Positions 33,469 to 64,000 of a stretch of DNA of 64,000 nt are shown in pieces. The notes below the pieces were generated by a model that ran no database searches, was not told the DNA's origin, and saw nothing but the letters and a program-made list of their open reading frames with translations. Position 1 is the stretch's first letter. Every line of letters starts with the position of its first letter. A program made the translations under genes and the position numbers. Origin of the DNA: Tridacna crocea (taxonomy: Eukaryota > Mollusca > Bivalvia > Cardiida > Cardiidae); contig OX031059.1 in the NCBI GenBank assembly GCA_943736015.1, positions 41,923,159-41,987,158 of the forward strand. The letters run 5' to 3'.

Positions 33469-33593
33469 CTTCGCCAATGGCAGTCTTTGCTGATTTTCAA
33501 TTTCATAGCCGTCTCTCCACACCTTCATGAGTAGTGCATCTTTCAAGTTTACCGCAAGTCTGTTCACACACAATCCTACATTGTTCATCAAAT
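33469..33593 (-). CDS. Candidate exon P (unproven), 125 nt
   Basis: Minus strand: CTACAG at the 5' side, then two bases and 41 open codons, then GTAATG. It contains LKDALLMKVWRDGYEIENQQ and ends RLPLAK. Complete copies lie at 42226-42350, 48642-48766 and 59956-60080. Reading the copies by eye, I find four silent changes in this frame (TGT/TGC, GAC/GAT, CTA/TTA, AGA/CGA) against three amino-acid changes (G/A, Q/L, N/Y), more silent changes than a random frame would give. The competing frame ends in TGA. No family is recognised. This is the best-supported exon candidate in the large units. Confidence 0.4.
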
Positions 33594-34530
33594 CTGTAGT
33601 TATTGTTCATCAGATCTGTAGGTAGAAAGAAAAATAATCTCCCCCTCCCCCTGCCCTCTCCCAATTGTTTCCTTTCACACACAAATGCAAATAAAGGGAA
33701 AACATTTATAGCCTTGCCACTTGAGCATAGAAGACATCTTGTCCGAGTTTACTGGGTTTCTGTATGAGGAGGTTGCATAACAATCCTGACTGACTTCATG
33801 CATGGGTGCACATCCATGCGACAGACTTGTAGTACAACTTAAGTCTACATTGTTGGAAACTAAAAAGAAAGATTGTAAGGCCTTATATCCCTATCTTAAC
33901 TGATAAACCCCTTGAAATGAGTAATTTTACAGACCAGGCTCTGTGGTCAAATAAAGGAAAAACATTTATAGCCTTGCCACTTGAGCATAGAAGACATCTT
34001 GTCAGACTTTACTGGGTTTGCTGGGTAGACTTGTAGAACAACTTAAGTCTACATTGTTGGAAACTTAAAAGAATGAGTGTAAGGCCTTATATCCCTATCT
34101 TAACTGATAAACCCCTTGGAATGGGTAATTTTACAGACTAGGCTCTGTGGTCAACCAGAGAGTCATCCAAGTACAAACTTAACCACCTTTGGCAGCAATT
34201 ATGTGTGTTCTAGCTGCAACATATAGCCATGCTAATTTTTTTGCATAGATATCATCTCTACTTTTCAGAAAAGAATGTGCTTCAAAAGCATTGGATATGT
34301 TGAGCTTGGTCACATGAAGTTTACATACACATCTGGACTTCACAGAGTTTTCGAAACCCTTCTTTATCTCTAAGCAACTGTTCACCAAACCCAAGAGACT
34401 GCAATCATTTTAAAACTGAAGAACTGAGGATGTTAAGGATGTCTGGGTGTTGGCTGTAATGAATTTGACATACACAAAGTATACTCATTTCTATGCATTG
34501 CTTGTAGGAGCCTTTGGAAAACATTTTTTT
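33594..34530. repeat. Block Q with a local ~0.26-kb duplication
   Basis: Shared with 42351-43070, 48767-49490 and 60081-60800. In this copy AAAGGGAAAACATTTATAGC through GGCTCTGTGGTCAA appears twice (about 33695-33951 and 33953-34155). At 34480-34530 the family 2 MITE of block Q is cut off by the LINE insertion, at TTTGGAAAACAT. Confidence 0.75.
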
Positions 34531-34961
34531 AAGACTTTTATTAGCCACGTCAACTGGTATGATGGGAGTCGTGGCTATCTCCCATCATACCTTACAATTC
34601 AATGTTAGTAGGTCTCTAAATAATTTGTTATTAGTCTTAAACAAAGGATGTTTCATATGCCTAACAAAAATTGTATTTTTTGTAAAGTTGTTCCATCATT
34701 TGAATGTGACCTTGTTAAGAGAGAGAGGGAGAGAGAGACAATCAGAAATCAGGGTAGAAAAACATGAAATAGATGTAAGTATGTGTGTGTGTGGGTGAGT
34801 GTATATGTGAATATGGAGTAAAGAAACTGGAATCTTTCAGAAATTTTATAGAAATTCGTTAATATTTACTACCTGTACACTATACTAGCAATAGGAGACT
34901 TTGATAAACATGTTCTACAATTGTCATGTGACATTTGCCAATTTCGTCTCTATTTGTGCAT
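34531..34961 (-). other. LINE 3' region
   Basis: It contains an inverted pair around 34554-34599 (GGTATGATGGGAG / CTCCCATCATACC) and a GA/GT-rich low-complexity stretch at about 34718-34806. No coding content is seen. Confidence 0.5.
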
Positions 34962-35551
34962 TTATGAATATTCAAGGTAAAGTTTTAAAGTATTTTTAAA
35001 GCCGATCATTGAGGGTATTTTTTGTTTATTCCTACAGTGATAAATATATTTCTTAAGTTCTAAAAGTAGCCTGTCTAATGGTACGTTTGATGTACATGTG
35101 CCTAAAAGTAAAGTTCGACTATCAATTTGTAGTGTATGGTCAAAAGTACTTAAAATTGTTGCTATATTATTAATCAATGATTTGGTGTGTTCACAGTCAT
35201 GAAATAAATGTAGAATAGTTTCTTCATATCGTTTACAAAATGTACATGAGTTAGTATCTATCAATTTCATTTTAAAAAGCAGATCATTTGTTGGAATTAT
35301 TCTATGTTTCTTGTTTGAAACCACTGTGTATAAGTGTCTTTTGTGCATTTAAACACATTTCCATGAACTTGCTTCCAATTTATATTTACGTTGTTATGTA
35401 ATGAGTCCCATTTAACTCTGCTCGAAGGTATTTCATCGTTGTGTGTCAAAGTGTTATAAACATGTTTATTTATGTCACTTTTGGTTAGCATATGAAAGAA
35501 ATAACTAATAGAAGGATTATGACATCCTTTTAAAGCATCCTTTTTAATCAT
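34962..35551 (-). pseudogene. LINE C-terminal region with CCHC knuckle
   Basis: Two overlapping frames (35297-35551 and 34962-35348) carry the end of the LINE protein. The knuckle CTFCKRYEETILHLFHDC has Cys-x2-Cys, His and Cys spaced as in LINE C-terminal domains. A frameshift separates the two pieces. Confidence 0.75.
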
Positions 35552-35740
35552 AATGTGATTTTTTTGAAAGGAAAGTTTTAACTGATGTTGTAATGCTATA
35601 GAAATTTAAAAAAATCACTTTGTTTCTAGTTATTGTTTTTATGTCTAACCAATTTTTAAAACTTCCATCTGCATTTAACAGGTCCTTTAAATATCTTATA
35701 CCACAATCGTATAATATTTTATTGTAAATGTGCTTAGAAT

Positions 35741-36457
35741 CTACCTAAATATTACTATTAAAAACAGAGGCATGTAAACTACATCCAGCAATTTTGTAAA
35801 ACTACATTTCGAGATAAATACCATAAAAGATTTTAAAACATCGATCCAGAAATCATTTATGTTGGTAATAATTCTTTCACAGTACATCATTCCAACATTA
35901 AATAGTTTGTGTGTGTGAATTACATTATTCATGAATTCATGACAACTTTTACCACAAGCAACTAGTTTTCTTATCCATTTAATTTTCATACTTTTATTAT
36001 AGTTATTGACATCAATCATGTTTAGACCTCCTTCCATGTAATTTTTTGTGAAGACTGTTTAATTTTAGCAGTACCGTCCCATACAAATTCGTAAAGTGTA
36101 TTGTTCAGTTGTTTCATAAATTCATTCGTTGGTGATGGTAAACTAATAAATAGATGTGAGAGTAAACGTAATAAAAGACTTTTGACTACAGTTATTCTTC
36201 CAATTGGTGTTAGTTTTCTTTTCTTCCAATAATTTATAGTGTTTCAAAATTTAATTTCCATTTCCACTTGATAGATCTTGTACTATACTTCAAACTGCCA
36301 ATCCATATAAATTCTGTTTTGTCGATATTAACTTTCAAGCCAGAAATATGTGAGAATTTTTCTAGTTATTCAAGAGTACTTTTAATCGATTTTTCAGAAC
36401 CGTCTAAAAAGAGTGTTGTGTCATCAGCAAATTGTGATATGATATAGTCTTCTTTTT
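35741..36457 (-). pseudogene. LINE reverse transcriptase, catalytic FADD and thumb region
   Basis: The catalytic FADD is encoded at 36420-36431 in the context SQFADDTTLFLDGSEKSIK, immediately next to the Helitron-like insertion. Downstream, GGLNMIDVNNYNKSMKIKW (35741-36037) matches the region after the RT core in LINEs. Several frame changes lie between the two. Confidence 0.8.
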
Positions 36458-37731
36458 TAGCTCACCTGAGCACAACGTGCTCAGGGGGAGCTTTTAGGAC
36501 CACCCGGTGTCCGTCGTCCGTCGGTCGTCGTGCGTCGTCAACAATTCTTTAAACATCAACTCCTCCTAAACCGCTGGGCCAATTTTGACCAAACTTGGCT
36601 GGATTGTTCCTTGGGAGGTCATCTTTAAAAAGTGTTCGCAGAATTTGATTTCGTCAAAAACTCTGGTTGCCATGGCAACCAAATGGAATTTTCAAAGAAA
36701 TTCTTTAAAAATCTTCTTCTCTGAAACCGCTGGCCAGATTTTAAAATGATTTCACAGGGATGTTCCTTGGGTGACCCTTTTCAAACAGTGTCCGCGAAAT
36801 TTTGATCCGTCAAGAAACATGGCTCTGGTGAAAGGGGGCTACTTGCACTATACAGAAATGAAGAAATTTTTAAAAATTCTTCTTCTCTGAAACGGCTGGT
36901 CAGAATTTGAAATAATTTCTCAGGGATGTTCCTTGGGAAACCCTTTTCAAAAGTTGTTAGCGAAATTTTGATATGTCAAGAAACATGGCTCTGGTGAATG
37001 GGGGCTACTTGCACTATACAGAAATGAAGAAATTCTTGAATATTTTTCTTCTTTGAAACCGCTGGTCAGAATTTGAAATAATTTCTCAGGGATGTTCTTT
37101 GGGTGACCCTTTTCAAAAATTGTTCGTGAAATTTTGATCCGTTAAAAAACATGGCTCTGGTGAAAGGGGGCTACTCGCACTATATGGCAATGAAAACATT
37201 CTTGAAAATTCTTTTTCTCTGAAATCGCTTGTCAGATTTTAGAATAATTTCACAGCAATGTTCCTTGGGTGACCCTTTTCAAAAATTGTTCGCGAAATTT
37301 TGATCTGTCAAGAAACATGGCTCTGGTGAATGGGGGCTACTTGCACTATATAGACATGAAGAAATTATTGAGGATCATTGTTCTCTGAAACCGCTGGCCA
37401 CATTTTAAAATAATTTCGCAGGGATGTTACTTGAATGACCCTTTTAAAAAATTGTTCGCTAAATTGTGATCCATCTAGAAACATGGCTCTGGTGAATGGG
37501 GACTACTTGCACTATACAGAAATGAAGAAATTCTTAAAAATTCTTCTTTTCTTAAACTGAGTTAGTTTTTAAAATGACTTTTACAGGTGACCTTTTGAAA
37601 ATTGCTTGGCAAAATAATAATTCTGTTTCCAATGTTTCAATACCTAAAAAAAAAAAAAAGAAAAATAGGCTATGGTCCCGTAAAAAATTCAGGTGAGCGA
37701 TCGATCCAGGGCCATCCTGGCCCTCTTGTTT
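36458..37731 (-). mobile_element. Helitron-like element inserted in the LINE reverse transcriptase
   Basis: Same family as 22857-24430, opposite orientation: the + strand reads TTAGCTCACCTGAGCACAAC with the hairpin CTGAGCAC/GTGCTCAG, then about six ~170-bp repeats, then GGGCCATCCTGGCCCTCTTG. It separates GLKIN from the KEDYIISQFADD segment of the LINE, so it is younger than the LINE. Confidence 0.8.
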
Positions 37732-37732
37732 A

Positions 37733-38123
37733 TTTTTAGACCTATTATATTTCTATCGTGCTTTAATTTAATATTAAGAATTTCCTTGCGAAGGATGAAA
37801 ATATAAGCGGATAATGGATCACCTTGTCGACATCCCCTTCTGACTTTGAAATAATCTGAAAGAAAACCGATTATTTGTACGCATACCTCAGTATTGTGAA
37901 GAAATAATTCAATCCATTCTTTGAACATTAAAATATTCAAGCGTCTTTTCAATAAAATTAAATGATAGAGAATCAAAGGCCTTTTCATTAAAAGTTGAGG
38001 TATTCTATGTTCTTTACAATATTGCATAATGTCAAAGACTAGTCTTGTGTTTTCACCAATAAACCTGTCTCTTAAGAACCCAGTTTGGTCGCTTGATATG
38101 ATATGATCCAAAACGTGTTTCAT
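37733..38123 (-). pseudogene. LINE reverse transcriptase core, N-terminal half
   Basis: It contains QTGFLRDRFIGENTRLVFD and RRGCRQGDPLSAYIF, conserved RT blocks. The frame contains apparent small indels and is cut at its 3' side by the Helitron-like element. Confidence 0.85.
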
Positions 38124-38246
38124 CCTATTTGCAATACTCCCAGATGCAAGCTTATACAGAACATTTAAAAGAGCGATAGGTCTCTAGTTTTTTTTAAAAA
38201 CTTTTTTGGTTTATTATCTTTTGGTATGCAAGTTATAGTTCCTAAT

Positions 38247-38906
38247 TTAACGACTGGTGAAAAGGGATCTAGAAATAAATGCGTGATTTAATGCTCTTAC
38301 AACAAAATGGCCTATCTTATTCCAGAACACCTTATAAAAATTGGAAGTAAAACCATCCCCTCCTGGGCTTTTGTCGTTTTTCATGTTTTTGAGTGTATGT
38401 GTTACCTCATGGTATTGTAATAGTCCTTCGAGTTCCTTCTTCTGCTTTTCGTCTAGCTTACTTGAAGTACAGTTTTTTAAGTCATCCTCTAAATTGACGT
38501 CAATCAAATTATTTGATTCATTATATAAAATTTCATAATAATGTTTTGCTTTTTTGAGGATTTCCCTTTGGTCAAATAAGTGATTGCCATCTTCTGCTTC
38601 TATAAAAGGAATAGTTTTTGAGGCAATATTTTGTTTTTCCAAATTACAGAAATATTTCGTCACTTTTTCTCCACTGTCGACCCAGTTTGCTCTAGACCTA
38701 ATAAAAGAGCCATGTAGTTTTTCTTTTCGTAAGTTTTCTAATTCTGATTGTAGTGAAGATAACCTATCTTTATTCGTTTCATTTAAATTTGTTTCTAAAA
38801 AAGAAAATTCGTTTTCAATATGTTTTTCTCTCTGGTTTTTTGCTTTTGTTTTATAACTTGAAAATGAGATTATTTCTCCCCGTATTTCCATTAACAAAGT
38901 TTCCAT
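38247..38906 (-). pseudogene. LINE inter-domain and RT start
   Basis: A 219-codon frame with GSFIRSRANWVDSGEKVTKY in the linker and KSPGGDGFTSNFYKVFW at the RT entry, both typical of LINE ORF2. It is the longest open frame in the window. Confidence 0.85.
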
Positions 38907-39481
38907 AAAAAGTTGATCATCTATTATGAATTGTAACTCTGAGCGATCAATATTGATAATATTTTCTCTATTATAAACTGGTAAGAGTATTGCTGGATAA
39001 CATTTTTTTTATTTTTTTATTGATGAGATAAACATATTCTATGTCATTTAATAATGAATTATTAAATTTCCAGTATCCTTTCCCATGTTTTTGATTAGAA
39101 AAACTGTAGTTCAAGTACAATGATAGAGTGATCCGATTTATAGCTTATGTCTATATCACAATTTCTGAGGAAAGGAATTAAACTTTTTGTCGTTAAAATG
39201 TCTAAATGGGTCCATAAGTTCTCTTTCATTCATTGTTTTAATTAAAAGTTATCTCGAATTGATGTTATGATTAGAATCTTTGTAGGTTTCATAGTCAATT
39301 GAGCTATCAAGAACAAGATTAAAGTCACCACATACAAAAAATCCATTTTTTCAAAAGAATCAATATGACTAAAAGCATTTATAAAAAATCCAGGGTTATC
39401 ACTATTCGGTGCATATATACATGTATCTGCGAGTATAATTTGTTTGTCGCTGTAAGATATATTGATATATATTGATACCAA
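38907..39481 (-). pseudogene. LINE endonuclease remnant
   Basis: IILADTCIYAPNSDNPGF (39242-39481) fits the middle of an APE endonuclease, and GKGYWKFNNSLLNDIEYV (about 39034-39090) fits the segment after it. Frames are broken and the first half of the endonuclease is absent, so the element is 5'-truncated at 39481. Confidence 0.75.
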
Positions 39482-40021
39482 AACTCAGTACTAATACGAT
39501 GAGAGGATCTTGGCGACAAAATTATCATATACACACATTGTATACATAACACAGTTTTTTTCCAAGTAATTATGCGTGTTCTAGGAAACTCTTATTCGTC
39601 TCTAAGTATCTGTTGACTTAATCATCAAGACTGCAGTCATTTTCAGACTGAGAAACTCAAGAGTAATATGATGTGTGCATGGGTCCTGACAATATGAATT
39701 TGAAACACATACATTTTTGACTAAATGCAGAATTCAATTGTTATTTCATCTCTCAGCATCTGTTGACTTATCCATAGTGACTGTAGTTATTTTCAGAGGA
39801 AAGCATTTGAAGACAAAAGAAAGTATGGAACACCCAAAGCCAGCATGGATGGTATATGAACCCAACTAAAAACAACTGACCAGGAAGAAGTTTTGAAGAG
39901 TCCACTCCAGACTTCTTGTGTGAACAATGCCATTGCAAAAGAAGGTTATTGAAAGTTGAAAGCTTGTCTGCAAATCTAATTCTTCTCTTTACTAATTACC
40001 CATTATCAGGTAACCATTAAC

Positions 40022-40090
40022 CTCTGGCCTCTTCTTTAGGAGTCTGTGTCTCCAGTGGTCTCTTTGCACTCTTCCTGGGAAGGTCATCAC
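40022..40090 (-). CDS. Candidate exon R1 (unproven)
   Basis: Minus strand: TTTAAG, then two bases and an open frame DDLPRKSAKRPLETQTPKEE, then GTTAAT. Copies with GTAATG donors are at 43942-44011 and 61675-61744. In unit 4 (about 50355-50418) the donor is destroyed by a deletion. It resembles exon T in the order D-x-LPR. Confidence 0.25.
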
Positions 40091-40410
40091 CTTAAATTGA
40101 TAAAAGTCAAACGAATACACCAATTATATACTTCATTTGTCCATTTTTTAATAGTTTTCCCCCAATTTTTCCACCTAGTCAATGTTAATACAGATGACTG
40201 ATTTTCACAGCAAATGTCACGTGATGCACTAAATAGTGTAAACAACCGTGCCATCAATATTTACGCCCAAATGAAAGCAACATTCAAAATGAATTTTGAA
40301 TATTTCTGTACAAGGCTTCCTGTGAAGAAAAAGAAGTTTCCTACTCCTTTGACATGTAACTCTTGTGACTTGTCTTGCACCTGTTTAGTCCATTTAATGG
40401 TCACTGCTGA

Positions 40411-40627
40411 TTAACCCTTAATCCTATAAGGCATTTCTATGGTATCTCTAATTGACCCTAAATAACAGCAAGGATGAAGCTGTTTGTTATGTGTATATGA
40501 CACCTTTTGATAGCATAGAAATATTGTGGCAAAAGGTGAATTTGCTCGTCATTAGCAATTTCACCTTTTGCCACAATGTTTCCAAAGGCTCCTACAAACT
40601 ATGAGTATCTGTGGTATATAGGGTTAA
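40411..40627 (-). mobile_element. Family 2 MITE (block R)
   Basis: TTAACCCTTAATCCTATAAG to GTATATAGGGTTAA. The core palindrome is GTGGCAAAAGGTGAATTTGC with a mirrored arm. Confidence 0.9.
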
Positions 40628-40740
40628 GACCAAAGCACTCAGAATAGCAGTCTGAAAACTGATTTAAACTGCAACTAAGTTGAGAAACTCGGGCCACAAG
40701 CAGCTTGAACACACAAATGTTTCAATAAGGCCCTTTTTAC

Positions 40741-40879
40741 CTGACATATATTCAAGTGTCCATTGTACTAATGCGGCACCTTTTTTGGCTTTTAGTGTCC
40801 CACCCTCAATGTTGACTATGGTTGAGTCAATTTTTGTGTTAGAAAAAAGCCAGTTGTAAGGCACAAAAATTGTAAAGTA
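40741..40879 (-). CDS. Candidate exon YFT (unproven), open only in this copy
   Basis: The minus strand has a strong pyrimidine tract (TACTGTTCTTTTTTACCAG), then 46 open codons beginning YFTIFVPYNWLFSNTKID and ending KKGAALVQWTLEYMS, then GTAAAAAG. In the other copies (44666-44803, 51070-51207, 52422-52559, about 62402-62536) a 1-nt deletion and TAA occur after codon 31, and most differences are non-silent. It is either an exon decayed in four of five copies or a chance frame. No family is recognised. Confidence 0.3.
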
Positions 40880-40968
40880 CTGGTAAAAAAGAACAGTAAA
40901 ATCATGGATTGGTGCTGCAGCTATCAACGCTTTACTGTTTGCTTTTAAATTAGGGTTAGGACAAATAC

Positions 40969-41056
40969 CTTTTGCGATAAGGGAACTGCACTTTTCCGTG
41001 GCACTGTGGTGGTCTTCTTAGTAGTCCAGTTCCTTCTTGTAGGTGGGTCAACTTGC
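40969..41056 (-). CDS. Candidate exon R2 (unproven)
   Basis: The minus strand TTGTAG and GTATTTG borders enclose 88 nt. The open frame in this copy reads VDPPTRRNWTTKKTTTVPRK. Copies at 44893-44980, 51297-51384, 52648-52735 (stop TAG) and 62626-62713. It is homologous at DNA level to exons S and T (AG then WTGACC, GGACTACCAAGA), but one base longer than T before that shared segment, so the frames do not agree. Confidence 0.25.
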
Positions 41057-41176
41057 CTACAAATAAGCTTCTTAGATCTACTCGAATTGACGTTAGTAGA
41101 AATTCTGTGTTCAAAATGAGAGAAAAGAATAACTGAATTTCGACATCAAATGAAAATATGTGAATTATCTCCTTTG

Positions 41177-41391
41177 TTGAACTCTTTTACAAATAACAAA
41201 TTTATAGATAAGTCCAAATTGAAAACATTTGCAGACGACAAAATAAATGTGACTGAAAAATCAAAATCCGAGTTGGGAGGGTTAGGGAAAAAATGATTGT
41301 GGGAAAAGTAGAAAATGCTTTTCCCACAATGTCTTCCAAAGGCCTCTTCCTCAGGGTCATGAAAACCAGAGAATGTTTGGTAAAGGGTTTA
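41177..41391 (-). mobile_element. Family 1 MITE (block S), short hairpin
   Basis: TTGAACTCTTTTACAAATAA to AATGTTTGGTAAAGGGTTTA. Both TTAA sites are altered. The hairpin is shortened: ATTGTGGGAAAAGTAGAAAATGCTTTTCCCACAAT lacks the inner GCTGG part. Confidence 0.8.
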
Positions 41392-41478
41392 CCATTGATT
41401 GATAATATTAGCTTTATTTATATGCAATACAGATAAAGCAAAATAGATTACTTGTAAAAGAGAAACATTAAAGAGTAC

Positions 41479-41565
41479 CTTTTCATGTGGGAAACTGCAA
41501 AGTTGTTTTGGGCCACTTGGTGGAAAGGATAATAGCTAAGTCCCTCACTTCTGTCTGTGGGTCAA
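41479..41565 (-). pseudogene. Candidate exon S with in-frame stop
   Basis: Minus strand: CATTAG, 87 nt, GTACTC. The frame reads VDPQTEVRDLAIILSTKWPK and hits TGA two codons before the donor, where exon T has GGA. The copies at 45404-45490, 51812-51898 and 63143-63229 all carry this TGA; a further copy at about 53163 has also lost its donor. Either a decayed exon or a terminal coding segment. Confidence 0.3.
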
Positions 41566-41869
41566 CTAATGGAACAAAGATGTAAGCTACATGTAAAGGT
41601 TTCACATACCTTTCTTACTTTACATAACTAGTAAGATGTCCTATACATTTAAACTCTGTTACCTAACAATATTGTCCAATTTTAAAACACTATTATACTT
41701 TATATTTTCTATTTTAACTTAGCTATAGTATAGAATTTTTACAAGAAATAGATACTGTCTAAGTGGAATTTTTTGTGAAATGTAAAGTTTTGTGATTTCT
41801 CGAATTTGAAACTTTGGCAAACTCTTCTGTTTGGGTATTTCACCCCAACTATACGAAAAAGAAAGTGTC

Positions 41870-42098
41870 TTAACTCTTTACCAAACAAGAGAATTTTAGA
41901 CTGGTCCAAATCAAAAGCACATGCAGATGACAAATCAAAATTTCCTCAAAAATTGTAATTTGTTTTCAGCAGGGTAGAACTCATTGTGGGAAAAGGAAAA
42001 AATGCTAGTTACCAGCATTTTCTCCTTTTCCCACAATGTTTTCAAAAGGCTTCTATCTCAGGGTCGTAAAAACCATAGATTGTTTAGGAAAGGGTTAA
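41870..42098 (-). mobile_element. Family 1 MITE (block P)
   Basis: TTAACTCTTTACCAAACAAG to TTGTTTAGGAAAGGGTTAA, with a strong hairpin centred on GCTAGTTACCAGC. Confidence 0.88.
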
Positions 42099-42225
42099 AT
42101 GCGAAAACAAATTTCCCAAAACAAATATCCATAAGCAAAGATTCACAAATCTTTCGACGCACATATTTATCCACATGTACAGTGTAAGAAAAAGTAAAGG
42201 TTAGATGAAATAAACTGTTCATTAC

Positions 42226-42350
42226 CTTCGCCAATGGCAGTCTTTGCTGATTTTCAATTTCATAGCCGTCTCTCCACACCTTCATGAGTAGTGCATCTTT
42301 CAAGTTTACCGCAAGTCTGTTCACACACAATGCTACATTGTTCATCAAAT
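42226..42350 (-). CDS. Candidate exon P, unit 3 copy
   Basis: Open as in the 33469 copy, with G to A at one residue. Both splice-like borders are kept. Confidence 0.4.
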
Positions 42351-43295
42351 CTGTAGTTACTGTTCATCAGATCTGTAGGTAGAAAGAAAAATAATCCCAC
42401 CCCCCCTTCCGTCTTCCAAGTGTTTCCTTTCACACACAAATGCAAATAAAGGGAAAACATTTATAGCCTTGCCACTTGAGCATAGAAGACATCTTGTCAG
42501 ACTTTACTGGGTTTCTGTATGAGGAGGTTGCATAACAATCCTGACTGACTTCATGCATAGGTGCACATCCATGAGATGGACTTGTAGTACAAGTCTACAT
42601 TGTTGGAAACTAAAAAGAAAGATTGTAAGGCCTTATATCCCTATCTTAACTGATAAACCCCTTGAAATGAGTAATTTTACAGACCAGGCTCTGTGGTCAA
42701 CCAGAATGTCATCCAAGTACAAACTTAACCACCTTTGGCAGCAATTATGTGTGTTCTAGATGCAACATATAGCCATGCTAAATTTTTTGCATAGATATCA
42801 TCCCTACTTTTCAGAAAAGAATGTGCTTCAAAAGCATTGGATATGTTGAGATAGGCCACATGAAGTTTACATACACATATGGACTTCACAGAGTTTCTCA
42901 AACCCTTCTTTATCTCTAAGCAACTGTTCACCAAACCCAAGAGACTGCAATCATTTTAAAACTGAAGAACTGAAGATGTTAAGGATATCTGGGTCTTGGC
43001 TATAATGAATTTGACATACACAAAGTATACTCATTTCTATGCATTGCTTGTAGGAGCCTTTGGAAAACATTGTGACAAAAGGTGAAATTGCTCGTCACGT
43101 CCATGCTATCAAAAGGTGTCATATACACATAAGAAACAGCTTCATCTTTGTGGTTATTTGGGATCAATTATTGATACCATAGAAATGCCTTATGGGCTAA
43201 GGGTTAAGGGTTAACACAGTTTTCAGCCAAATCCTTCTTTATCTCTCAGCGAGTGTTGACTTAAAGATGAATTATGTTCGTCATTTTCCAACCAA
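42351..43295. repeat. Block Q, unit 3, with truncated family 2 MITE
   Basis: About 43012-43207 is a family 2 MITE whose right hairpin arm is deleted (TTGCTCGTCAC runs straight into GTCCATGCTATC). It ends GGGCTAAGGGTTAA, with the motif GGGTTAA repeated once. Confidence 0.75.
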
Positions 43296-43941
43296 AACTC
43301 AGTACTAATACGATGAGAGGATCTTGGCGACAAAATTATCATATACACACATTGTATACATAACACAGTTTTTTTCCAAGCAATTATGCGTGTTCTAGCA
43401 AACTCTATTATGCGTGTTCTAGGAAACTCTTATTCATCTCTCAGTATCTGTTGACTTAATCATCAAGACTGCAGTCATTTTCAGACTGAGAAACTCAAGA
43501 GTAATAGGATGTGTGCATGGGTCCTGACAATATGAATTTGAAACACATACATTTTGGACTAAATGCAGAATTCAACTGTTATTTCATCTCTCAGCTTCTG
43601 TTGACTTATCCATAGTGACTGCAGTTATTTTCAGAGGAAGCATTTGAAGACAAAAGAAAGTATGGAACACCCAAAGCCAGCATGGATGGTATGTGAACCC
43701 CACTAAAAACAACTGACCAGGAAGAAGTTTTGAAGAGTCAACTCCATACTTCTTGTGTGAACAATGCCATTGCAAAAGAAGGTTATTGAAAGTTGAAAGC
43801 TTATCTGCAAATCTGATTCTTCTCTTTACTAATTTCTTTAACTTACAATTGAAAACATCTCCCTACAGAGCATGCATGATAGAGAAAAGCATATAAAATA
43901 ATTATTTGGAACATCTTCACCCATTATCAGGTAATCATTAC

Positions 43942-44011
43942 CCTCTGGCCTCTTCGTTAGGAGTCTGTGTCTCCAGTGGTCTGTTTGCACTCTTCCTGGG
44001 AAGGTCATCAC
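43942..44011 (-). CDS. Candidate exon R1, unit 3 copy
   Basis: Frame DDLPRKSANRPLETQTPNEE with GTAATG donor. Confidence 0.25.
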
Positions 44012-44335
44012 CTTAAATTAATAAAAGTCAAACGAATACACCAATTATATACTTCTTTTGTCCATTTTTTAATAGTTTTCCCCCAATTTTTCCACATAGT
44101 CTATGTTAATACAGATGACTAACTGATTTTCACAGCAAATGTCACGTGATGCACTAAATAGTGTAAACAACCGTGCCATCAATATTTACGCCCAAATGAA
44201 AGCAACATTCAGAATGAAGGTTGAATATTTCTGTAGAAGGCTTCCTGTGAAGGAACAGAAGTTTCCGACTCTTTTGACATGTAACTCTTATGACTTACCT
44301 TGCACCTGTTTAGTCCATTTAATGGTCACTGCTGA

Positions 44336-44552
44336 TTAACCCTTAATCCTATAAGGCATTTCTATGGTATCTCTAATTGACCCTAAATAACAGCAAGGAT
44401 GAAGCTGTTTGTTATGTGTATATGACACCTTATGATAGCATAGAAAACATTGTGGCAAAAGTGAATTTGCTCGTCATTAGCAATTTAACCTTTTGCCACA
44501 ATGTTTCCAAAGGCTCCTAAAAGCTATGGGTATCTATGGTGTATAGGGTTAA
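44336..44552 (-). mobile_element. Family 2 MITE (block R, unit 3)
   Basis: TTAACCCTTAATCCTATAAG to GTGTATAGGGTTAA. Hairpin with two differences between arms. Confidence 0.88.
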
Positions 44553-44665
44553 GACCAAAGCACTCAGAACAGCAGTCTGACCACAGATTTAAACTGTAAC
44601 TAAGTTGAGAAACTCGGGCCACAAGCAGCTTGAACACACAAATGTTTCAATAAGGCCCTTTTTAC

Positions 44666-53076: not shown

Positions 53077-53334
53077 CCATTGATTGATAATATTAGCTTT
53101 ATTTATATGCAATACAGATAAAGCAAAATGGATTACTTGTAAAAAAGAAACATTAAAAAGTACATTTTCATGTGGGAAACTACAAAGTGGTTTGGGGCCA
53201 CTTGGTGGAAAGGATAATAGCTAAGTCCCTCACCTCTGTCTGTGGGTCAACTGATAGAACAAAGATGTAAGGCAAAGGTTTCACATAACCTTTCTTACTT
53301 TACATAACTAGTAAGATGGCCTATGCATTTAAAC

Positions 53335-53546
53335 TCTGTTACCTAACAATATTGTCCAATTTTAAAACACTTTCAGATGACACAATAAGTCACTTGAAAA
53401 ATGAAATTTGCTTTTGGAAGTGTAGCGAACAATATAGACAAAAGAGAAAATGCTGGTTAACAGTATTTTCTCCCTGTCCCAGATTATTTCAAATGCCTTC
53501 CTTCCTGGGCTTCTTAAAATTCTGGAATTTTGGGGAAAATAATATG
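53335..53546 (-). mobile_element. Degenerate family 1 MITE (block T, unit 4)
   Basis: As at 45576. Confidence 0.65.
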
Positions 53547-54128
53547 TGACAGGAACTTTCCAAAGAAACTTAGAGCCTTCTTCCATGAGTACATGTACCT
53601 GTTGAAGACGGAGAAAGTTTCACTTTTCTACAACTAACTTCTGAATACATAATTATCACTTTTGGCTCTTTATTTTTGCCTAGAGATCAGAGGTCACAAA
53701 AATTGCAGTCTGAACTTTGATATTTGCTGTATGTTGGGAAACTCTGGCTTTCCACAACCCTGTACTTGTAGCACCAATGTCCTTTTTTTACCAAAATTTA
53801 ATATGTGTGTTTTGTTGTTTTTGTCACTTAATTGGATTGATGATGATATTTGGAATTCTAAGCAAGATTAAAGTAGACTGTTAGATTTAAGAAAACTCAA
53901 ACTATAGCACTCTGAGGGACATGGTGAAAAACCTGCAACTACACAGGCAGGTATCTCTGCTAAGAATGCACATGGCTAGTTGCAGAATAAATCTGACCTT
54001 CTCAATCTACAGAATGGGTATCAAGAGCAGAATGTAGAACAGCATAATTCCAGATACTCCAAGAATGCATAGATAGGTGTAGCAGCTACAAAACTTAAAT
54101 ACTGTTGAAAATGTGGTAAAGTATGTAC

Positions 54129-54209
54129 CTTTTCCACTTGCAAAGTTCGTTGTTTTGGGGCATCTTAGTGCTTGTCTTGGTAGCCCGTCTTTATCGGTGC
54201 GTTGGTCAT
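54129..54209 (-). CDS. Candidate exon T, unit 4 copy
   Basis: 81 nt, open, two residues different from the 46359 copy (K to N, N to S). Borders kept. Confidence 0.35.
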
Positions 54210-54249
54210 CTAATCTGAAAAATAGCATGCGTAATATTGCCAAGGTCAA

Positions 54250-54473
54250 GTTGTTGTTATCAAACGATAAAATTTTAGACTTGTCCAGATTTAAAGCATT
54301 TGGAGACAACAAATTGAACCCGACTCAAAAATATAAACTTGACTCTAGTAGAGCAGAAAAGATTGTGGGAAAAGGAGAAATGCTGGTTACTAGCGTTTTA
54401 TCTTTTTCCCACTATGTTTTCAGAAGGCTTCCTCCTCTGGGTCGTAAAAATTCAGGATTTTGTAAAGGGTTAA
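54250..54473 (-). mobile_element. Family 1 MITE (block T second, unit 4)
   Basis: As at 46480; right TTAA at 54470-54473. Confidence 0.75.
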
Positions 54474-54639
54474 TATTCTGAAATACTCTGTCAGTTTTCA
54501 AATTCTATAGAACAGCTTTTCTGTCTTCGTGGAAAAGAATGTGTGAGTTATCTCTTATTTCCAACTACCTTATAGCTTTTTGGAAATGTGTATTCAGTGC
54601 AGTAATAGCAAAACATATTAGTTTTCAAATTGTATCATG

Positions 54640-55890
54640 AGGAATAAAGGAATCCACTTGCAATTAATTTCTTACCAATAATTGATAACAGGATTCATTT
54701 CTCTCTTATTGCCTATCCTTATTTCCACAATGGTCATATGAGATTGAAGTCAGTCACTGGTGAAGTATTGTGCAGAGCACTAGTAAAAGAAAGTCCAGAG
54801 AACCATGGATAGGTACAGGGGCTCACATAATTACATTTGGAATCATGTTGAAAAAATTGGTAAACTAGAGTATCGACTCCAAGGCCAGTTATCCACCTGA
54901 AATCATGAAATTGCCTAGTGTAAATGAAATGTCAGATCTAATTTACTAGAGCGAAGAGAGGCTTTATTTTGAAAATATAAATTATAAGAAACAGAAAAGA
55001 GAGGGTGGGAGAGAGAGAGAGGGTATGATTTAAGATGGACAAAGTAAACGATATGAAAGAAAGAGGGAAAATGAGGCCGCTGTATCATACTGAAATCAGT
55101 GCCACTACTAGCTCAGTTGGTAACATACAAGGATTGAAACAGGATATTACATGCAACCAGTGTCTTACCCTGAATTGATACAGGATTCATTTCTCTCTTA
55201 GTGCCTATCCTTGTTTCCACAATGGTCATACCAGATTGAAGTCAGTCACTGGTGAAGTATTGTGCAGAGAACTAGAAAAAGAAAGTTCAGAGAATGATGG
55301 ATAGGTACAGTGGCTCACATATTATATTTGAAATCATGTGGAAAACATTGGTAAAATAAACATGAATATCATGGCAACAGTAATAAGCATTATTAGAGGA
55401 ATGAAATTAGTTGAAAATAATGAAGGAAAACATTCCAGAAAAGAGGTTGGCAGAGCTGGAATTTAGGTTTGTGACCCCTTGATTAATGTTTTGAACCATA
55501 CTATTTGAAATTCAGTTTTCAGAAGGATAAAAGATACTGTAAACAACTTGGACTTTAAGTACACCCCCCCCCCCCCCGCAAAACATATGTTTTCAGAGGT
55601 TTTCTGCAATCAGTATGTCTGGACGTCCAGGTGTGTGTCCGTCTGTGTACGAAATACAAGTAATTTTGTGTCACAGACTCCTCCTAGAGTTTTGCTGCCA
55701 TTGTATTGAAAGTTGTTTGATCTGTTGATCGTATACTGAATTCGTGCAAGATGCAGTTTTCAATCATCTACTCCATATAATTCAAGTGTAATCTTCCCTT
55801 GAACTTAAAACAATTTTTGATAAATTGACTGCGTCTGTCAAAGCCCTGGTGGAGTGGGGTATCAAGTCACATCAGTGAAGGTACGTTTTC
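54640..55890. repeat. Block U, unit 4
   Basis: Contains the same internal pair, a GA run near 55005 and a C14 run near 55564. The second minus-strand ATG segment has a 1-nt deletion (GATACAGG for GATAGCAGG). Confidence 0.75.
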
Positions 55891-56051
55891 TATTTTAACT
55901 TAGCTATAGTATAGAACTTTTACAAGAAATAGATACTGTCTTAGTGGAAATTTTTGTGAAATGTAAAGTTTTGTGATTTCTCGAATTTGAAACTTTGGCA
56001 AACTCTTCTGTTTGGCTATTTTACCCCAACTATACGAAAAAAGAAAGTGTC

Positions 56052-56280
56052 TTAACTCTTTACCAAACAAGAGAATTTTAGACTGGTCCAAATCAAAAGC
56101 ACATGCAGATGACAAATCAAAATTTCCTCAAAAATTGTAATTTGTTTTCAGCAGGGTAGAACTCATTGTGGGAAAAGGAAAAAATGCTAGTTACCAGCAT
56201 TTTCTCCTTTTCCCACAATTTTTTCAAAAGGCTTCTATTTCAGGGTCGTAAAAACCATAGATTGTTTAGGAAAGGGTTAA
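56052..56280 (-). mobile_element. Family 1 MITE (block P, unit 5)
   Basis: TTAA at both ends with a good hairpin. Confidence 0.87.
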
Positions 56281-56834
56281 ATGCGAAAACAAATTTCCCA
56301 AAACAAATATCCATAAGCAAAGATTCACAAATCTTTCGACGCACATATTCAGTATGGACCAACGTACAGTGTCGCAAATCGGAAGCTGCTGCTACTGTAC
56401 GCCCCAAATCAGTTAGCTGCAGTAAACAAGTTTAACAAAACAGGCTGGCACGCGTAATCTAGCAGACAGAAAATGATCGGGTGTTTTGCATTTGAAAGGT
56501 AAGAAGTATTTCTACAAATACATACTGCAAATGGGTTCATAAACCGTGTGGGTTTTGTATAGGAAAGCTGCATCACCAAATTTTGTCGTTGGCGGCTGCC
56601 ATGATCGCTAAACTTTTGTTTTCTACTCCTTCGGGAAGATCAGAAACCATTTTCTGATGCTGCAGACAGATAAAGAAATCATTCAGCTTCGCGTATACAT
56701 GTCTATGGTAGTATTCAGTGCCATATCCATTGAAATATTTCACTTTTCATCAAGGTACCATCAAAACGTTCACTGTACGGCTAGCTGCTAACCCGGATTT
56801 TTGTACTGCTCGGTTAGCTGCGATTTTCTTGGTA

Positions 56835-58142
56835 AAGCCTCTTTCACATTAGCGATTTTTTCGTCTTACGATTCGCCGCAAACACGATCGCTATCTATTC
56901 GTACCCGTCGCACATATTGCAAATTTGCAAAAGGATCTCCGTACGTTGTTCGTAAGGTTGACTCACGAACTGTACGGTGTCCACAGGTTGAACGTACGAA
57001 AAAAACAAGAGGGCCATTGGCCCTGGAACGCTCACTTTAGACTATAGCTTTTGAGTGAAATTCAATTCTTTGAGCAACTTTGGTAAAACTTCACCCAAGG
57101 AACATCCCTGCCAAGTTGCATCATGATTGGCCCAGTGGGTAAGGAGAAGAAGATGTTTAAAGAAACTGTTGACGGGCGACAGACGCCGGACATAGGGCAA
57201 TCAAATATCAAAGCTCTACACCTTCCAGTATCAAAGAAGAATTTTAAATTTTCCTTCTTTGTCCTATGTTCGAACTTGTCGTCCCCGGGGCTGGGTCAGT
57301 TTTAACCAAAGCAGAATCCTTGGAACAAACTTGGTAGAAGTTCACTCAAAGATGCTACATACCAAATTTCAAAGCTCTACACCATCCCGTTTAAGAGAAA
57401 AAGAAATTCAAAATTTTCCTTCTTTGCCGTTCCTATGTTCCAACCTGTGACCTCCGGGGCATAGCCAATTTGACACCAGGGACATCATATGACCAAACTT
57501 GGTAGAGGTCCACTAGAAGATTCTGCATACCAAATGTCAAAGCTCTGCACCTCTGCATCTTCAAGTTTCAGAGAAGATTTCTAAAGTTTTCCTTCTTTGT
57601 TGCTATGTTCGAACCTGTGACCCCCCGGGGGCAGGGTCAGTTTTGACCCCTAGGGCATGATAGGAACAAACTTGGTAGAGATCCACTAGGAATTGCTACC
57701 TCATTGCTAACTGGCCCCACCCCGGGGGTCACAAGTTTGAGCATAGGAACAAAGAAGGAAAACTTTAAAAATCGTCTCCTCTGAAACTTGAAGGCGTAGA
57801 GCTTTGATATTTGCTATGTGGCATCTCCTCGTGGACCTCCAACAATTTTATTTAAATGATGTCCCTGGTGTCAAAACTGGCCCCACCCCGGGGGTCACTA
57901 GTTTGATATAATTAATAGCAAGAGGTTCACAAGGAGATGCTACATACCAAATATCAAAGCTCTACGCCTTCAAGTGAAACAGGCCTAAGAAAATTAGCAT
58001 GTTGAAAAACCAGCTTAATTACGACGTCTACGGCGTTGCAAATTCGTAAAGCAGTCTTGCGGAATCCGCGCGAAGTCCTGCGATTTGTAAAAAAAAAAAA
58101 TGTTCCCGTACGGCTGTCGTAAGGCTGACGTGAAACAGGCTT
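56835..58142. mobile_element. Nested inverted-repeat element (~1.3 kb)
   Basis: AAGCCTCTTTCACAT at the left and ACGTGAAACAGGCTT at the right are near-perfect inverted termini, with matching subterminal CGTAC-rich segments. It contains GGGCCATTGGCCC (57011) resembling the Helitron-like terminus, and then ~165-bp repeats. Confidence 0.6.
57040..57985. repeat. Mixed-orientation ~165-bp repeats inside the nested element
   Basis: Phrases such as AAACTTGGTAGAGGTCCACT, CCAAATATCAAAGCTCTAC and TTCCTTCTTTG..ATGTTCGAACC recur on the + strand between 57040 and 57700. The reverse complement of the same phrases occupies about 57705-57900. Confidence 0.7.
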
Positions 58143-58240
58143 TTAAAGCTTATAATGAGAATTGTGTACATCTTGGTTAAGAGTGTTACAAGAAATGGCA
58201 TATAGATCTAGCTCTGAAGATGTGAGGTTGGCAGTGGTGA

Positions 58241-58519
58241 ATGTATAAAGTTCGTATTCGACTTTTCCAGGTTCCATTTCCACCCTTTAAAGACTGGGTG
58301 ACTCAAGGGGTCGTGAATAGCTCTACCATCGTCTATAAACGATCCATAGTTAGTATTGAGCACGTGCAGAGGTTAGATGTATTAAAAGAATCGGCTGCCT
58401 TTAAGCTAGTGCTTCGGTTTTCACTGAGATTTATACCTTTCAAAGGAAAACGCTACCAACTGAACGTCTGCAAATGCTTTGGTAAAGACTTAAGACTTGA
58501 GGATGGATGTGCGAGATAG
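58241..58519 (+). CDS. Unrecognised 92-codon frame inside the transposon
   Basis: It starts MYKVRIRLFQVPFPPFKDWV and ends after KDLRLEDGCAR. It is the only frame of this size in the unique part of the element. No transposase motif, membrane segment or known domain is visible. Likely a chance frame or a remnant. Confidence 0.15.
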   Translation: MYKVRIRLFQVPFPPFKDWVTQGVVNSSTIVYKRSIVSIEHVQRLDVLKESAAFKLVLRFSLRFIPFKGKRYQLNVCKCFGKDLRLEDGCAR

Positions 58520-58844
58520 TATCGTGAATTTAGGTTAAGAAAGAAAACCTGAAAACTTTACGTTTAACCCGAGCTGAATTCTTTATTTCGTTGAAAAGCT
58601 ACAAAAAAAAAAACTTACTGTATAATTCATTGATGTTCATAAGTGAATTAAAATCAATGATTAGGGGTTGCAAAAAATGGCAAACTTTGTTCCTATCTGT
58701 TGTACAGAACTAGACCTAAATCAAGAAATAATATCAGCAATGTTTTCCATGTAATAAAAGGATTTATCACTGGAGCCGGATTTGTGTAATTCTTGAAATG
58801 CCTTGAGGAAACAAGAAAATCTTACCTGCTATTGTTTGAATTTA

Positions 58845-59325
58845 CATATATATATGTCGCCGTCCAAACTGGAATCTAGGCAGATCCGGAATCTAGACCA
58901 AACTGGAATTTTGCCTATACCAAAATAGTTTAACAGTTTGGCTAGGCAGCTCCACAATCTGCCTAGACCAAATCGGAATATTTTCTCGTTTTATATAATG
59001 CGACTACATATTAACCATCTTAGTCAACTTAAACTCCAACATAAAAGATGTTTAATTAGAAATTCTGAGTAAGATTAAATTTTGAATGTTTAGCACTTTC
59101 GAGGAAAAAAATGCAACGTGGAAAACGGAGCAATTGTGGGAAAAACAAATAAGTTGCTTCAATTAAAAGTACGTCTCAATTGTAAACACGTGAGAATTAA
59201 TATGATTAAAAATTTGGAAAAAGAATCTAGATCTATTTTGGTCTACGCTAAAGTATTATTTCAATTTGGTCTAGGCAGATTCCCGGGATATGCCAAGATT
59301 TTGATCCGGCATACGACATATATAT
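58845..59325. mobile_element. Nested ~480-bp inverted-repeat element
   Basis: ATATATATGTCG at the left and CGACATATATAT at the right are inverted termini. Inner segments (TCTAGGCAGAT / ATTTGGTCTAGGCAG, GACCAAACTGG / CAATTTGGTC) also pair. Confidence 0.55.
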
Positions 59326-59955
59326 CGAGCTAAAAAACCGTGTTTTACCATATGGGCTGAACCTTTTTGTTCAGTGCTATGATGCATTAATGCAGCTAGG
59401 CGTACACATTTTTTATTGTGAAATGCAGCTAATCGTTGCGTACAGATGCAGCTAGCCGTACAGTGAACGTTTTGATGGTACCTTGATAAAAAGTGAATTA
59501 TTTCAATGGATATGGCACTGAATACAACCATAGACATGTATACGCGAAGCTGAATGATTGCATTATCTGTATGCAGTATCAGAAAATGGTTTCCGATCTT
59601 CCCGAAGGAGTAGGAAGCAAATGTTGAACGATCATGGCAGCCGTCAACGACAAAATTTGGTGATGCAGCTTTCCTATACAAAACTCGCACGGTTTATGAA
59701 CCCAATCGCAGTATGTATTTGTAGAAAAACTTCTTACCTTTCAAATGCAAAACACCCGATCATTTTCTGTCTGTTAGATTACGCGTGCCAGCCTGTTTTG
59801 TTAAACTTGTTTACTGCAGCTAACTGATTTGGGGCGTACAGTAGCAGCAGCTTCCGATTTGCGACACTGTACGTTGGTCCATACTGATATTTATCCACAT
59901 ATACAGTGTAAGAAAAAGTAAAGGGTAGACAAAACTACCCTAAACTGTTCATTAC

Positions 59956-60080
59956 CTTCGCCAATGGCAGTCGTTGCTGATATTCAATTTCATAGCCGTC
60001 TCTCCACACCTTCATGAGTAATGCATCTTTCAAGTTTACCGCAAGTCTGTTCACACACAATGCTACATTGTTCATCAAAT
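59956..60080 (-). CDS. Candidate exon P, unit 5 copy
   Basis: Open with GTAATG donor. Silent CTA/TTA and AGA/CGA changes and N to Y. It lies 68 bp from the transposon insertion. Confidence 0.4.
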
Positions 60081-61016
60081 CTGTAGTTACTGTTCATCAG
60101 ATCTGTAGGTAGAAAGAAAAATAATCTCCCCCTCCCCCTGCCCTCTCCCAATTGTTTCCTTTCACACACAAATGCAAATAAAGGGAAAACATTTATAGCC
60201 TTGCCACTTGAGCATAGAAGACATCTTGTCAGACTTTACTGGATTTCTGTATGAGGAGGTTGCTTAACAATCCTGACTGACTTCATGCATGGGTGCACAT
60301 CCATGCGACAGACTTGTAGTACAACTTAAGTCTACATTGTTGGAAACTAAAAAGAAAGATTGTAAGGCCTTATATCCCTATCTTAACTGATAAACCCCTT
60401 GAAATGAGTAATTTTACAGACCAGGCTCTGTGGTCAACCAGAATGTCATCCAAGTACAAATTTAACCACCTTTGGCAGCAATTATGTGTGTTCTAGCTGC
60501 AACATATAGCCATGCTAAATTTTTTGCATAGATATCATCCCTACTTTTTAGAAAAGAATGTGCTTCAAAAGCATTGGATATGTTGAGCTAGGCCACATGA
60601 AGTTTACATACACATATGGACTTCACAGAGTTTTCCAAACCCTTCTTTATCTCTAAGCAACTGTTCACCAAACCCAAGAGACTGCAATCATTTTAAAACT
60701 GAAGAACTGAGGATGTTAAGGATATCTGGGTCTTGGCTATAATGAATTTGACATACACAAAGTATACTCATTTCTATGCATTGCTTGTAGGAGCCTTTGG
60801 AAAACATTGTGACAAAAGGTGAAATTGCTCGTCACGTCCATGCTATCAAAAGGTGTCATATACACATAAGAAACAGCTTCATCTTTGTGGTTATTTGGGA
60901 TCAATTGTTGATACCATAGAAATGCCGTATGGGCTAAAGGGTTAAAACAGTTTTCAGCCAAATCCTTCTTTATCTCTCAGCGACTGTTGACTTAAAGATG
61001 AATTACGTTAGTCATT
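60081..61016. repeat. Block Q, unit 5, with truncated family 2 MITE
   Basis: The MITE at about 60750-60945 has the same one-arm deletion as in units 3 and 4, and ends CTAAAGGGTTAA. Confidence 0.75.
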
Positions 61017-61674
61017 TTCCAACCAAAACTAAGTACTAATACGATGAGAGGATCTTGGCGACAAAATTATCATATACACAAATTGTATACATAACACAGT
61101 TTTTTTCCAAGCAATTATGCGTGTTCTAGCAAACTCTATTATGCGTGTTCTAGGAAACTCTTATTCATCTCTCAGTATCTGTTCACTTAATCATCAAGAC
61201 TGCAGTCATTTTCAGACTGAGAAACTCAAGAGTAATAGGATGTGTGCATGGGTCCTGACAATATGAATTTGAAACACACACATTTTGGACTAAATGCAGA
61301 ATTCAACTGTTATTTCATCTCTCAGCTTCTGTTGACTTATCCATAGTAACTGCAGTTATTTTCAGAGGAAGCATTTGAAGACAAAAGAAAGTATGGAACA
61401 CCCAAAGCCAGCATGGATGGTATGTGAACCCCACTAAAAACAACTGACCAGGAAGAAGTTTTGAAGAGTCCACTCCATACTTCTTGTGTGAACAATGCCA
61501 TTGCAAAAGAAGGTTATTGAAAGTTGAAAGCTTGTCTGCAAATCTGATTCTTCTCTTTACTAATTTCTTTAACTTACAATTGAAAACATCTCCCTACAGG
61601 AGCATGCATGATAGAGAAAAACATATAAAAAAAAACATTTGGAACATCTTCACCCATTATCAGGTAACCATTAC

Positions 61675-61744
61675 CCTCTGGCCTCTTCGTTAGGAGTCTG
61701 TGTCTCCAGTGGTCTGTTTGCACTCTTCCTGGGAAGGTCATCAC
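61675..61744 (-). CDS. Candidate exon R1, unit 5 copy
   Basis: Same 70 nt and GTAATG donor as in unit 3. Confidence 0.25.
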
Positions 61745-62068
61745 CTTAAATTAATAAAAGTGAAACGAATACACCAATTATATACTTCATTTGTCTATTT
61801 TTTAATAGTTTCCCCCCAATTTTTCCACCTAGTCCATTTTAATACAGATGACTAACTGATTTTCACAGCAAATGTCACGTGATGCACTAAATAGTGTAAA
61901 CAACCGTGCCATCAATATTTACGCCCAAATGAAAGCAACATTCAGAATGAAGGTTGAATATTTCTGTAGAAGGCTTCCTGTGAAGAAACAGAAGTTTCCG
62001 ACTCTTTTGACATGTAACTCTTATGACTTACCTTGCACCTGTTTAGTCCATTTAATGGTCACTGCTGA

Positions 62069-62286
62069 TTAACCCTTAATCCTATAAGGCATTTCTATGG
62101 TATCTCTAATTGACCCTAATTAACAGCAAGGATGAAGCTGTTTGTTATGTGTATATGACACCTTTTGATAGCATAGAAAACATTGTGGCAAAAGGTGAAT
62201 TTGCTCGTCATGAGCAATTTCACCTTTTGCCACAATGTTTCCAAAGGCTCCTACAAACTATGGGTATCTATAGTGTATAGGGTTAA
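62069..62286 (-). mobile_element. Family 2 MITE (block R, unit 5)
   Basis: Both TTAA ends. The palindrome has 28-bp arms with one mismatch. Confidence 0.9.
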
Positions 62287-62401
62287 GACCAAAGCACTCA
62301 GAATAGCAGTCTGACCACTGATTTAAACTGCAACTAAGTTGAGAAACTCGGACCACAAGCAGCTTGAACACACAAATGTTTCAATAAGGCCCTTTTCACT
62401 G

Positions 62402-62536
62402 ACATGTATCCAAGTGTCCATTGTACTAATGCGGCACCTTTTAGGTTTTTAGTGTCCCACCCTCAATGTTGACTATGGTTGAGTCAATTTTTGTGATAGA
62501 AAAAAGCCAGTTGTAAGGCACAAAAATTGTAAAGTA
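62402..62536 (-). pseudogene. Candidate exon YFT, unit 5 copy, stopped
   Basis: TAA after GGTLKT; the donor region has also lost a base. Confidence 0.28.
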
Positions 62537-62625
62537 CTGGTAAAAAAGAACAGTAAAATCATGGATTGGTGCTGCCGCTATCAACGTTTTACTGTCTGCT
62601 TTTAAATTGGGGTTAGGACAAATAC

Positions 62626-62713
62626 CTTTTTCCATAAGGGAACTGCACTTTTCCGTGGCACAGTGGTGATCTTCTTGGTAGTCCAGTTCCTTCTCGTAGG
62701 TGGGTCATCTTGC
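62626..62713 (-). CDS. Candidate exon R2, unit 5 copy
   Basis: Same sequence class as 51297-51384, open, same borders. Confidence 0.22.
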
Positions 62714-62838
62714 CTACAAATAAGCTTCTTAGGTCTGCTGGAATTGACGTCATTAGAAATTCTGTCTGTGTTCAAACTGAGAGAAAAGAATAACTGAATT
62801 TCGACATCAAATAAAAAATATGTGAATTATCTCCTTTG

Positions 62839-63054
62839 TTGAACTCATTTACAAATGACAAATTAATAGATAAGTCCAAATTGAAATCATTTGCAGACGA
62901 CAAAATAAATGTGACTAAAAAATCAAAATCCGAGTTGGGAGGGTTAGAGAAAAAAATCATTGTGGGAAAAGTAGAAAATGCATTTCCCACAATGTCTTCC
63001 AAAGGCCTCTTCCTCAGGGTCATGAAAACCAGGGAATGTTTGGTAAAGGGTTTA
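62839..63054 (-). mobile_element. Family 1 MITE (block S, unit 5)
   Basis: Short-hairpin form. Confidence 0.8.
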
Positions 63055-63142
63055 CCATTGATTGATAATATTAGCTTTATTTATATGCAATACAGATAAA
63101 GCAAATTGGATTACTTGTAAAAAAAGAAACATTAAAAAGGAC

Positions 63143-63229
63143 CTTTTCATGTGGGAAACTGCAAAGTGGTTTGGGGCCACTTGGTGGAAAGGATAATCGC
63201 TATGTCCCTCACTTCTGTCTATGGGTCAA
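63143..63229 (-). pseudogene. Candidate exon S, unit 5 copy, in-frame TGA
   Basis: Donor context GTCCTT; same stop. Confidence 0.28.
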
Positions 63230-63312
63230 CTAATGGAACAAAGATGTAAGGTAAAGGTTTCACATACCTTTCTTACTTTACATAACTAGTAAGATGGCCT
63301 ATACATTTAAAC

Positions 63313-63524
63313 TCTGTTACCTAGCAATATTGCCCAATTTTAAAACACTTTCAGATGACACAATACGTCACTTGAAAAATGAAATTTGCTTTTGGAAGTG
63401 TAGCGAACAATGTAGACAAAGGAGAAAATGCTGCTTAACAGTATTTTCTCCCTGTCCCAGATTATTTCAAATGCCTTCCTTCCTGGGCTTCTTAAAATTC
63501 TGGAATTTGGGGGAAGATAATATG
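63313..63524 (-). mobile_element. Degenerate family 1 MITE (block T, unit 5)
   Basis: As at 45576. The window ends within block T. Confidence 0.65.
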
Positions 63525-64000
63525 TGACAGAAACTTTCCAAAGAAACTTAGAGCCTGCTTCAATGAGTACATGTACCTGTTGAAGACGGAGAAAGTTTCA
63601 TTTTTCTACAAATAACTTCTGAATACATAATTATCACTGTTGGCTCTTTATTTTTGCCTAGAGATCAGAGGTCACAAAAATTGCAGTCTGAACTTTGATA
63701 TTTGCTGTATGTTGGGAAACTCTGACTTTCCACAACTCACCAATGTCCTTTTTTACCGAAATTTAATATGTGTGTTTTGTTGTTTTTGTCACTTATTGGA
63801 TTGATGATGATATTTGGAATTCTAAGCAAGATTAAAGTAGACTGTTAGATTTAAGAAAACTCAAACCATAGCACTCTGAGGGACAAGGTGAAAAACCTGT
63901 AACTACACAGGCAGGTATATCGGCTAAGAATGCACATGGCTAGTTGCAGAATAAATCTGACCTGCTCAATCTACAGAATGGGTATCAAGAGCAGAATGTA

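Follow-up and report, generated by a model that had tools for sequence, protein, structure and literature searches.

Macrosatellites and other complex satellites, MITEs and the non-autonomous Helentrons of bivalves are the described systems closest to the locus analysed here. PMC7492417 gives repeats of 140-180 bp for the main clusters of non-autonomous Helentrons (HINE and Pearl) in C. gigas; the 166-bp tandem-repeat elements in our window (the whole stretch of 64 kb that was analysed), in which a short array of ~166-bp repeats is flanked by two unlike sequences, resemble these bivalve Helentrons in repeat length, the one property compared, and no likeness of sequence is implied (PMC7492417). 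MITEs are non-autonomous elements with terminal inverted repeats, and human microRNAs derived from them are known (PMC1784062). Like MITEs, the copies of a hairpin element in the window are short (~225 bp), dispersed and present in both orientations, and many of them end like TTAACYCTTTACCAAAC / GTTTGGTAAAGGGTTAA; unlike MITEs, they are dominated by a long internal hairpin.

The window also holds a tandem array which, at a probability of roughly 0.78, is a complex satellite (macrosatellite) of ~6.4-kb units, apparently noncoding, which unequal exchange has reshaped and into which a LINE, tandem-repeat elements and a transposon with long terminal inverted repeats have inserted. We favor the noncoding satellite because units in fixed order carry different insertions, the changes between them fit neutrality in 10 of 11 open reading frames (ORFs) tested, none of 21 ORFs of unit C reaches a Pfam cutoff, and three related exon-like segments have unequal lengths modulo 3. 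No molecular function is assigned to the array.

The head-to-tail arrangement with a 6.4-kb step is real. In self-blastn of the 64-kb window, matches several kilobases long show about 95-97% identity, far above chance, and the blocks that precede the internal duplication of unit D recur 6404-6422 bases after their counterparts in unit C. Taking unit C (41705-48119) as the reference, in whose coordinates all unit positions are given, the array is laid out as follows.

30354-34525, plus strand: first part of the array, made up, in this order, of unit positions 47092-48279, a 166-bp tandem-repeat element (about 31540-33105) and the left piece of unit B with unit positions 41872-43071 (self-blastn and sequence reading)
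33106-41704: unit B, damaged, split by the LINE and lacking unit positions 45608-48120
39477-41704, plus strand: right piece of unit B, lacking unit positions 45608-48120 (self-blastn)
41705-48119, plus strand: unit C, 6415 bp, the reference unit (self-comparison)
48120-55885, plus strand: unit D, with a 1.35-kb internal tandem duplication (50678-52033 / 52039-53386)
55886-64000, plus strand: unit E, truncated where the window ends, with an insert of 3537 bp

Identity among units B to E is 94.8-97.4%, and the piece designated A is 92.8% identical to unit C and 93.8% to unit D. The mean divergence between copies over the whole unit is 3.6%, ranging from 0.0 to 10.0% per 100-bp bin; values are noisy in bins to which one to three unit pairs contribute. 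A plasmid database gave no match to a 2401-bp piece of unit C. Outside units C to E, two head-to-tail copies of an 8678-bp stretch (16229-24906 and 24905-33582) are 100% identical, possibly through a very recent duplication or an assembly error. Elsewhere in the window, positions 1-6375 form an array of their own, whose related repeats measure roughly 0.5 kb and share about 77-90% identity, and diverged tandem repeats of ~144 bp occupy positions 14522-16270.

The architecture proposed in an earlier note on this DNA is borne out in part. Self-comparison confirms that the blocks recur in fixed order at the 6404-6422-base step; the deletion proposed for one unit corresponds to the 2.5 kb (45608-48120) missing from the same unit that the LINE splits; and the internal duplication proposed for another is the 1.35-kb duplication in unit D. 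The label "macrosatellite" also agrees with the sequence, which has kilobase tandem units of high identity. The array itself likewise stands, but not its proposed start at 33583, which is merely the base after the 8678-bp exact duplication: unit sequence is found by self-blastn from 30354 onward and, in the exactly duplicated copy, already from 21678.

The LINE and the 3.5-kb transposon that the same note had reported as insertions are both present.

34526-39476, minus strand: remnant of a LINE (non-LTR retrotransposon) inside unit B, itself split by another of the 166-bp tandem-repeat elements at about 36452-37731 (Pfam and sequence)
56350-59886, no strand given: DNA transposon in unit E, 3537 bp, with terminal inverted repeats of ~440 bp (95%), a 5-bp target duplication (ATATT) and an inner 168-bp tandem repeat

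The LINE is supported by a zf-RVT match in Pfam (E=1.7e-07, 32.2 bits, above the cutoff of 27.5) and by an RVT_1 match just below its cutoff (E=2.9e-06, 27.6 bits against 29.6). For the transposon, the target duplication is joined by exact 17-base empty sites in other units, at 24725, 33401 and 42158; the three ORFs of the transposon that were tried gave no Pfam hit.

The events seen in the sequence suggest an order of construction. Before amplification, the unit would already have held several copies of the hairpin element together with older internal duplications. The array may then have grown and shrunk by unequal exchange or replication slippage, which would account for the 1.35-kb internal duplication in unit D and the 2.5-kb loss in unit B. 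Single units would have been hit later by the LINE, by the 166-bp tandem-repeat elements and by the DNA transposon with long terminal inverted repeats.

A different reading of the array, and an unlikely one, is that it represents a decayed, tandemly duplicated gene on the minus strand, or one long exon-repeat gene. The earlier note had raised both forms, a tandemly expanded gene family and a very large exon-repeat gene, on the basis of segments bordered by AG..GT on the minus strand, for which it gave no coordinates. From their translations we placed the segments it named P, R1, R2 and YFT; S and T have no confident identification.

44893-44980, minus strand: probably R1, 88 bp, AG..GT-bordered
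46359-46444, minus strand: probably R2, 86 bp, with the "YFT" reading just past its donor
45404-45490, minus strand: a third related exon-like segment, 87 bp
42280-42372, minus strand: probably P, 93 bp

Such segments thus exist. In the three related ones, AG and GT are kept at matching places, a point in favor of a gene. However, their lengths of 88, 86 and 87 bp (1, 2 and 0 modulo 3) mean that they are not interchangeable as in-phase exons, and the third segment has a stop in all three frames in unit C. R1 and R2 are about 62% identical, and a further match continues through the adjoining hairpin copies; this likeness, together with its extension into the hairpins, indicates that they are old duplicates. 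Their differences, counted by codon position over 50 ungapped bases, are 8/7/4 with the R1 of unit D and 8/8/3 with the R1 of unit C, so that third positions show no excess over these bases. Divergence between units gives a mixed picture: R1 (4.9%) and the third segment (4.1%) exceed the 3.6% of the unit, whereas P (2.15%) and a 92-aa ORF (1.78%) diverge less than the unit, which speaks for a gene. R2 stands at 2.33%, from a single unit pair, and its surroundings (46200-47000) at 1.97%. Of the five segments, two (P and the 92-aa ORF) thus fall below the unit mean with no evident cause, and two exceed it.

Splice-like signals give the gene its best support. We scored them with a generic splice-site matrix. 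On the minus strand of unit C, 41 candidate exons were found at the loosest threshold against 20.0 expected (2 of 100 simulations as high) and 16 against 8.7 at the next (5 of 100), and the surplus then vanishes with stricter splice scores, at 6 against 3.1 for the third threshold (17 of 100) and 2 against 1.2 for the strictest (30 of 100). On the plus strand the counts lie within the simulations (28 to 64 of 100). Donor-like sites carry this surplus: with a score of at least 2, the minus strand of unit C has 24 against 13.1 expected (6 of 1000 simulations as high), 23 of them outside the hairpin copies. At the other four cutoffs, 49, 76, 151 and 332 of 1000 simulations are as high, and the plus strand of unit C shows no surplus of donor-like sites over simulations. 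Nor is there a donor surplus in two non-array control regions, where 54 of 300 (minus) and 185 of 300 (plus) simulations are as high for 6501-16200, and 286 of 300 (minus) and 296 of 300 (plus) for 16229-21600. Candidate exons per kb number 0.52 (plus) and 0.21 (minus) in a non-array control stretch against 0.16 and 0.31 in unit C, a comparison in favor of the noncoding reading. What chiefly speaks against that reading is the excess of donor-like sites on the minus strand, which leaves some room for a decayed gene. The surplus of candidate exons is clear only when weak sites are included.

The coding tests, whose power is low, do not support a gene. Unit C has 21 stop-to-stop ORFs of 60 aa or more. 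Pooled over them, the ratio of nonsynonymous to synonymous rates is 0.82, and none of them reaches a curated Pfam cutoff, the one listed match being Flocculin at 13.7 bits against a cutoff of 21. In 10 of the 11 ORFs tested against the observed mutation spectrum, synonymous changes are not in excess (P = 0.115 to 0.874) and there is hence no sign of constraint, with the reservation that these tests rest on 4 to 25 changes per ORF, so that weak constraint would be missed. The exception is the 92-aa ORF on the minus strand at 43587-43862, with 5 synonymous against 4 nonsynonymous changes (P = 0.034, uncorrected); the chance of at least one such value among 11 ORFs is about one third. This ORF is open in units C, D and E, unit B differing by a one-base gap, and has no PDB match. 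With 10 of 11 ORFs compatible with neutrality, 0 of 21 at a Pfam cutoff and segment lengths unequal modulo 3, neither form of the proposed gene is supported, and the exon-like segments of the minus strand most likely owe their AG..GT borders to chance, three of them lying within old duplicates that adjoin hairpin copies.

Six copies of the ~225-bp hairpin element make up ~20% of unit C.

41868-42105, plus strand: hairpin copy hp1
43026-43207, minus strand: hairpin copy lacking one stem arm
44336-44552, plus strand: hairpin copy hp5
45098-45320, plus strand: hairpin copy hp2, with a shortened hairpin
45586-45783, plus strand: hairpin copy hp3
46481-46704, plus strand: hairpin copy hp4

The element is dispersed beyond the array. 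Twenty copies, hand-picked from self-search matches with other, shorter matches left aside, were aligned; 13 lie outside the array, they occur in both orientations, and both ends are kept in many of them, not all. Many ends read TTAA, which may be part of the ends or a target duplication. When up to 3 mismatches are allowed, and the exact duplication and both palindrome strands are included in the count, the hairpin core is found 33 times in the window, whereas 100 shuffles give a mean of 0.00. The core has no exact match in viral or prokaryotic contig sets, which says little because these sets cover viruses and prokaryotes only. Translations of the hairpin may resemble predicted animal proteins; three hairpin-derived peptide strings were not found in the literature. 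A clustering of breakpoints in the hairpins was considered by eye and dropped, as the breakpoints are too few.

These hairpins raise the idea, judged from sequence and quite unlikely, that the array is transcribed without coding and that its hairpins would be processed to small RNAs, in the manner of MITE-derived microRNAs or hairpin-RNA loci. Human MITE-derived microRNAs offer a precedent (PMC1784062). Folding also lends some support: the best of 18 folded cores reach -49.2 kcal/mol, and the weakest -8.0 kcal/mol. However, hp2, hp4 and the copy at 43026 have short or damaged hairpins, and Rfam and tRNA scans of the window gave no match, the former counting against small RNAs.

Further support for small RNAs comes from paired changes in the stem, for which 16 of the 18 cores, without those at 7059 and 12143, were used. 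The two arms of one copy resemble each other slightly more (0.809) than arms from different copies do (0.781), with 25 of 2000 permutations as high. Over a 30-pair stem in the 16 aligned cores, 86.0% of cells are paired against 82.3% in shuffled data. Changes on both sides affect 8 of the 30 pairs, a number reached in 3 of 500 shuffles, and 13 cells, a number reached in 0 of 500, and slid versions of the alignment reach at most 7 cells. The palindromes at 12452-12518 and 44443-44506 form a second subfamily of the hairpin element; where its stem departs from the main type, the two arms in several cases carry corresponding changes, as noted by eye and included in the count over the 16 cores. During replication, the copying of one hairpin arm onto the other also yields paired changes. 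Selection on the hairpin or such arm-to-arm copying would each give the pattern, and the paired changes are only suggestive because the shuffles do not keep the relatedness of the copies. The fuller proposal is that of a macrosatellite acting as a hairpin-RNA locus: its transcription would yield clustered precursors of small RNAs, and selection would maintain the repeated hairpins in that role. On the sequence evidence this is very unlikely; if the hairpins did give small RNAs, the array would be a satellite serving as their source.

It is highly improbable that an assembly artefact accounts for some of the array or for its copy number: false tandem duplication in assembly can yield exact head-to-tail repeats such as the 8678-bp one, but this lies outside units C to E, and units B to E differ from one another by 2.6-5.2% and carry different insertions.

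The complex satellite thus accounts best for the locus, which on present evidence is an ordinary one with inserted mobile elements. It also carries a caution, in that old duplicates edged by AG and GT can mimic repeated exons when they lie in a tandem array. Set beside known macrosatellites and complex satellites, the array differs in that only about four units are seen, in one 64-kb window, and resembles them in its kilobase-sized head-to-tail units, their high identity and their internal deletions and duplications.
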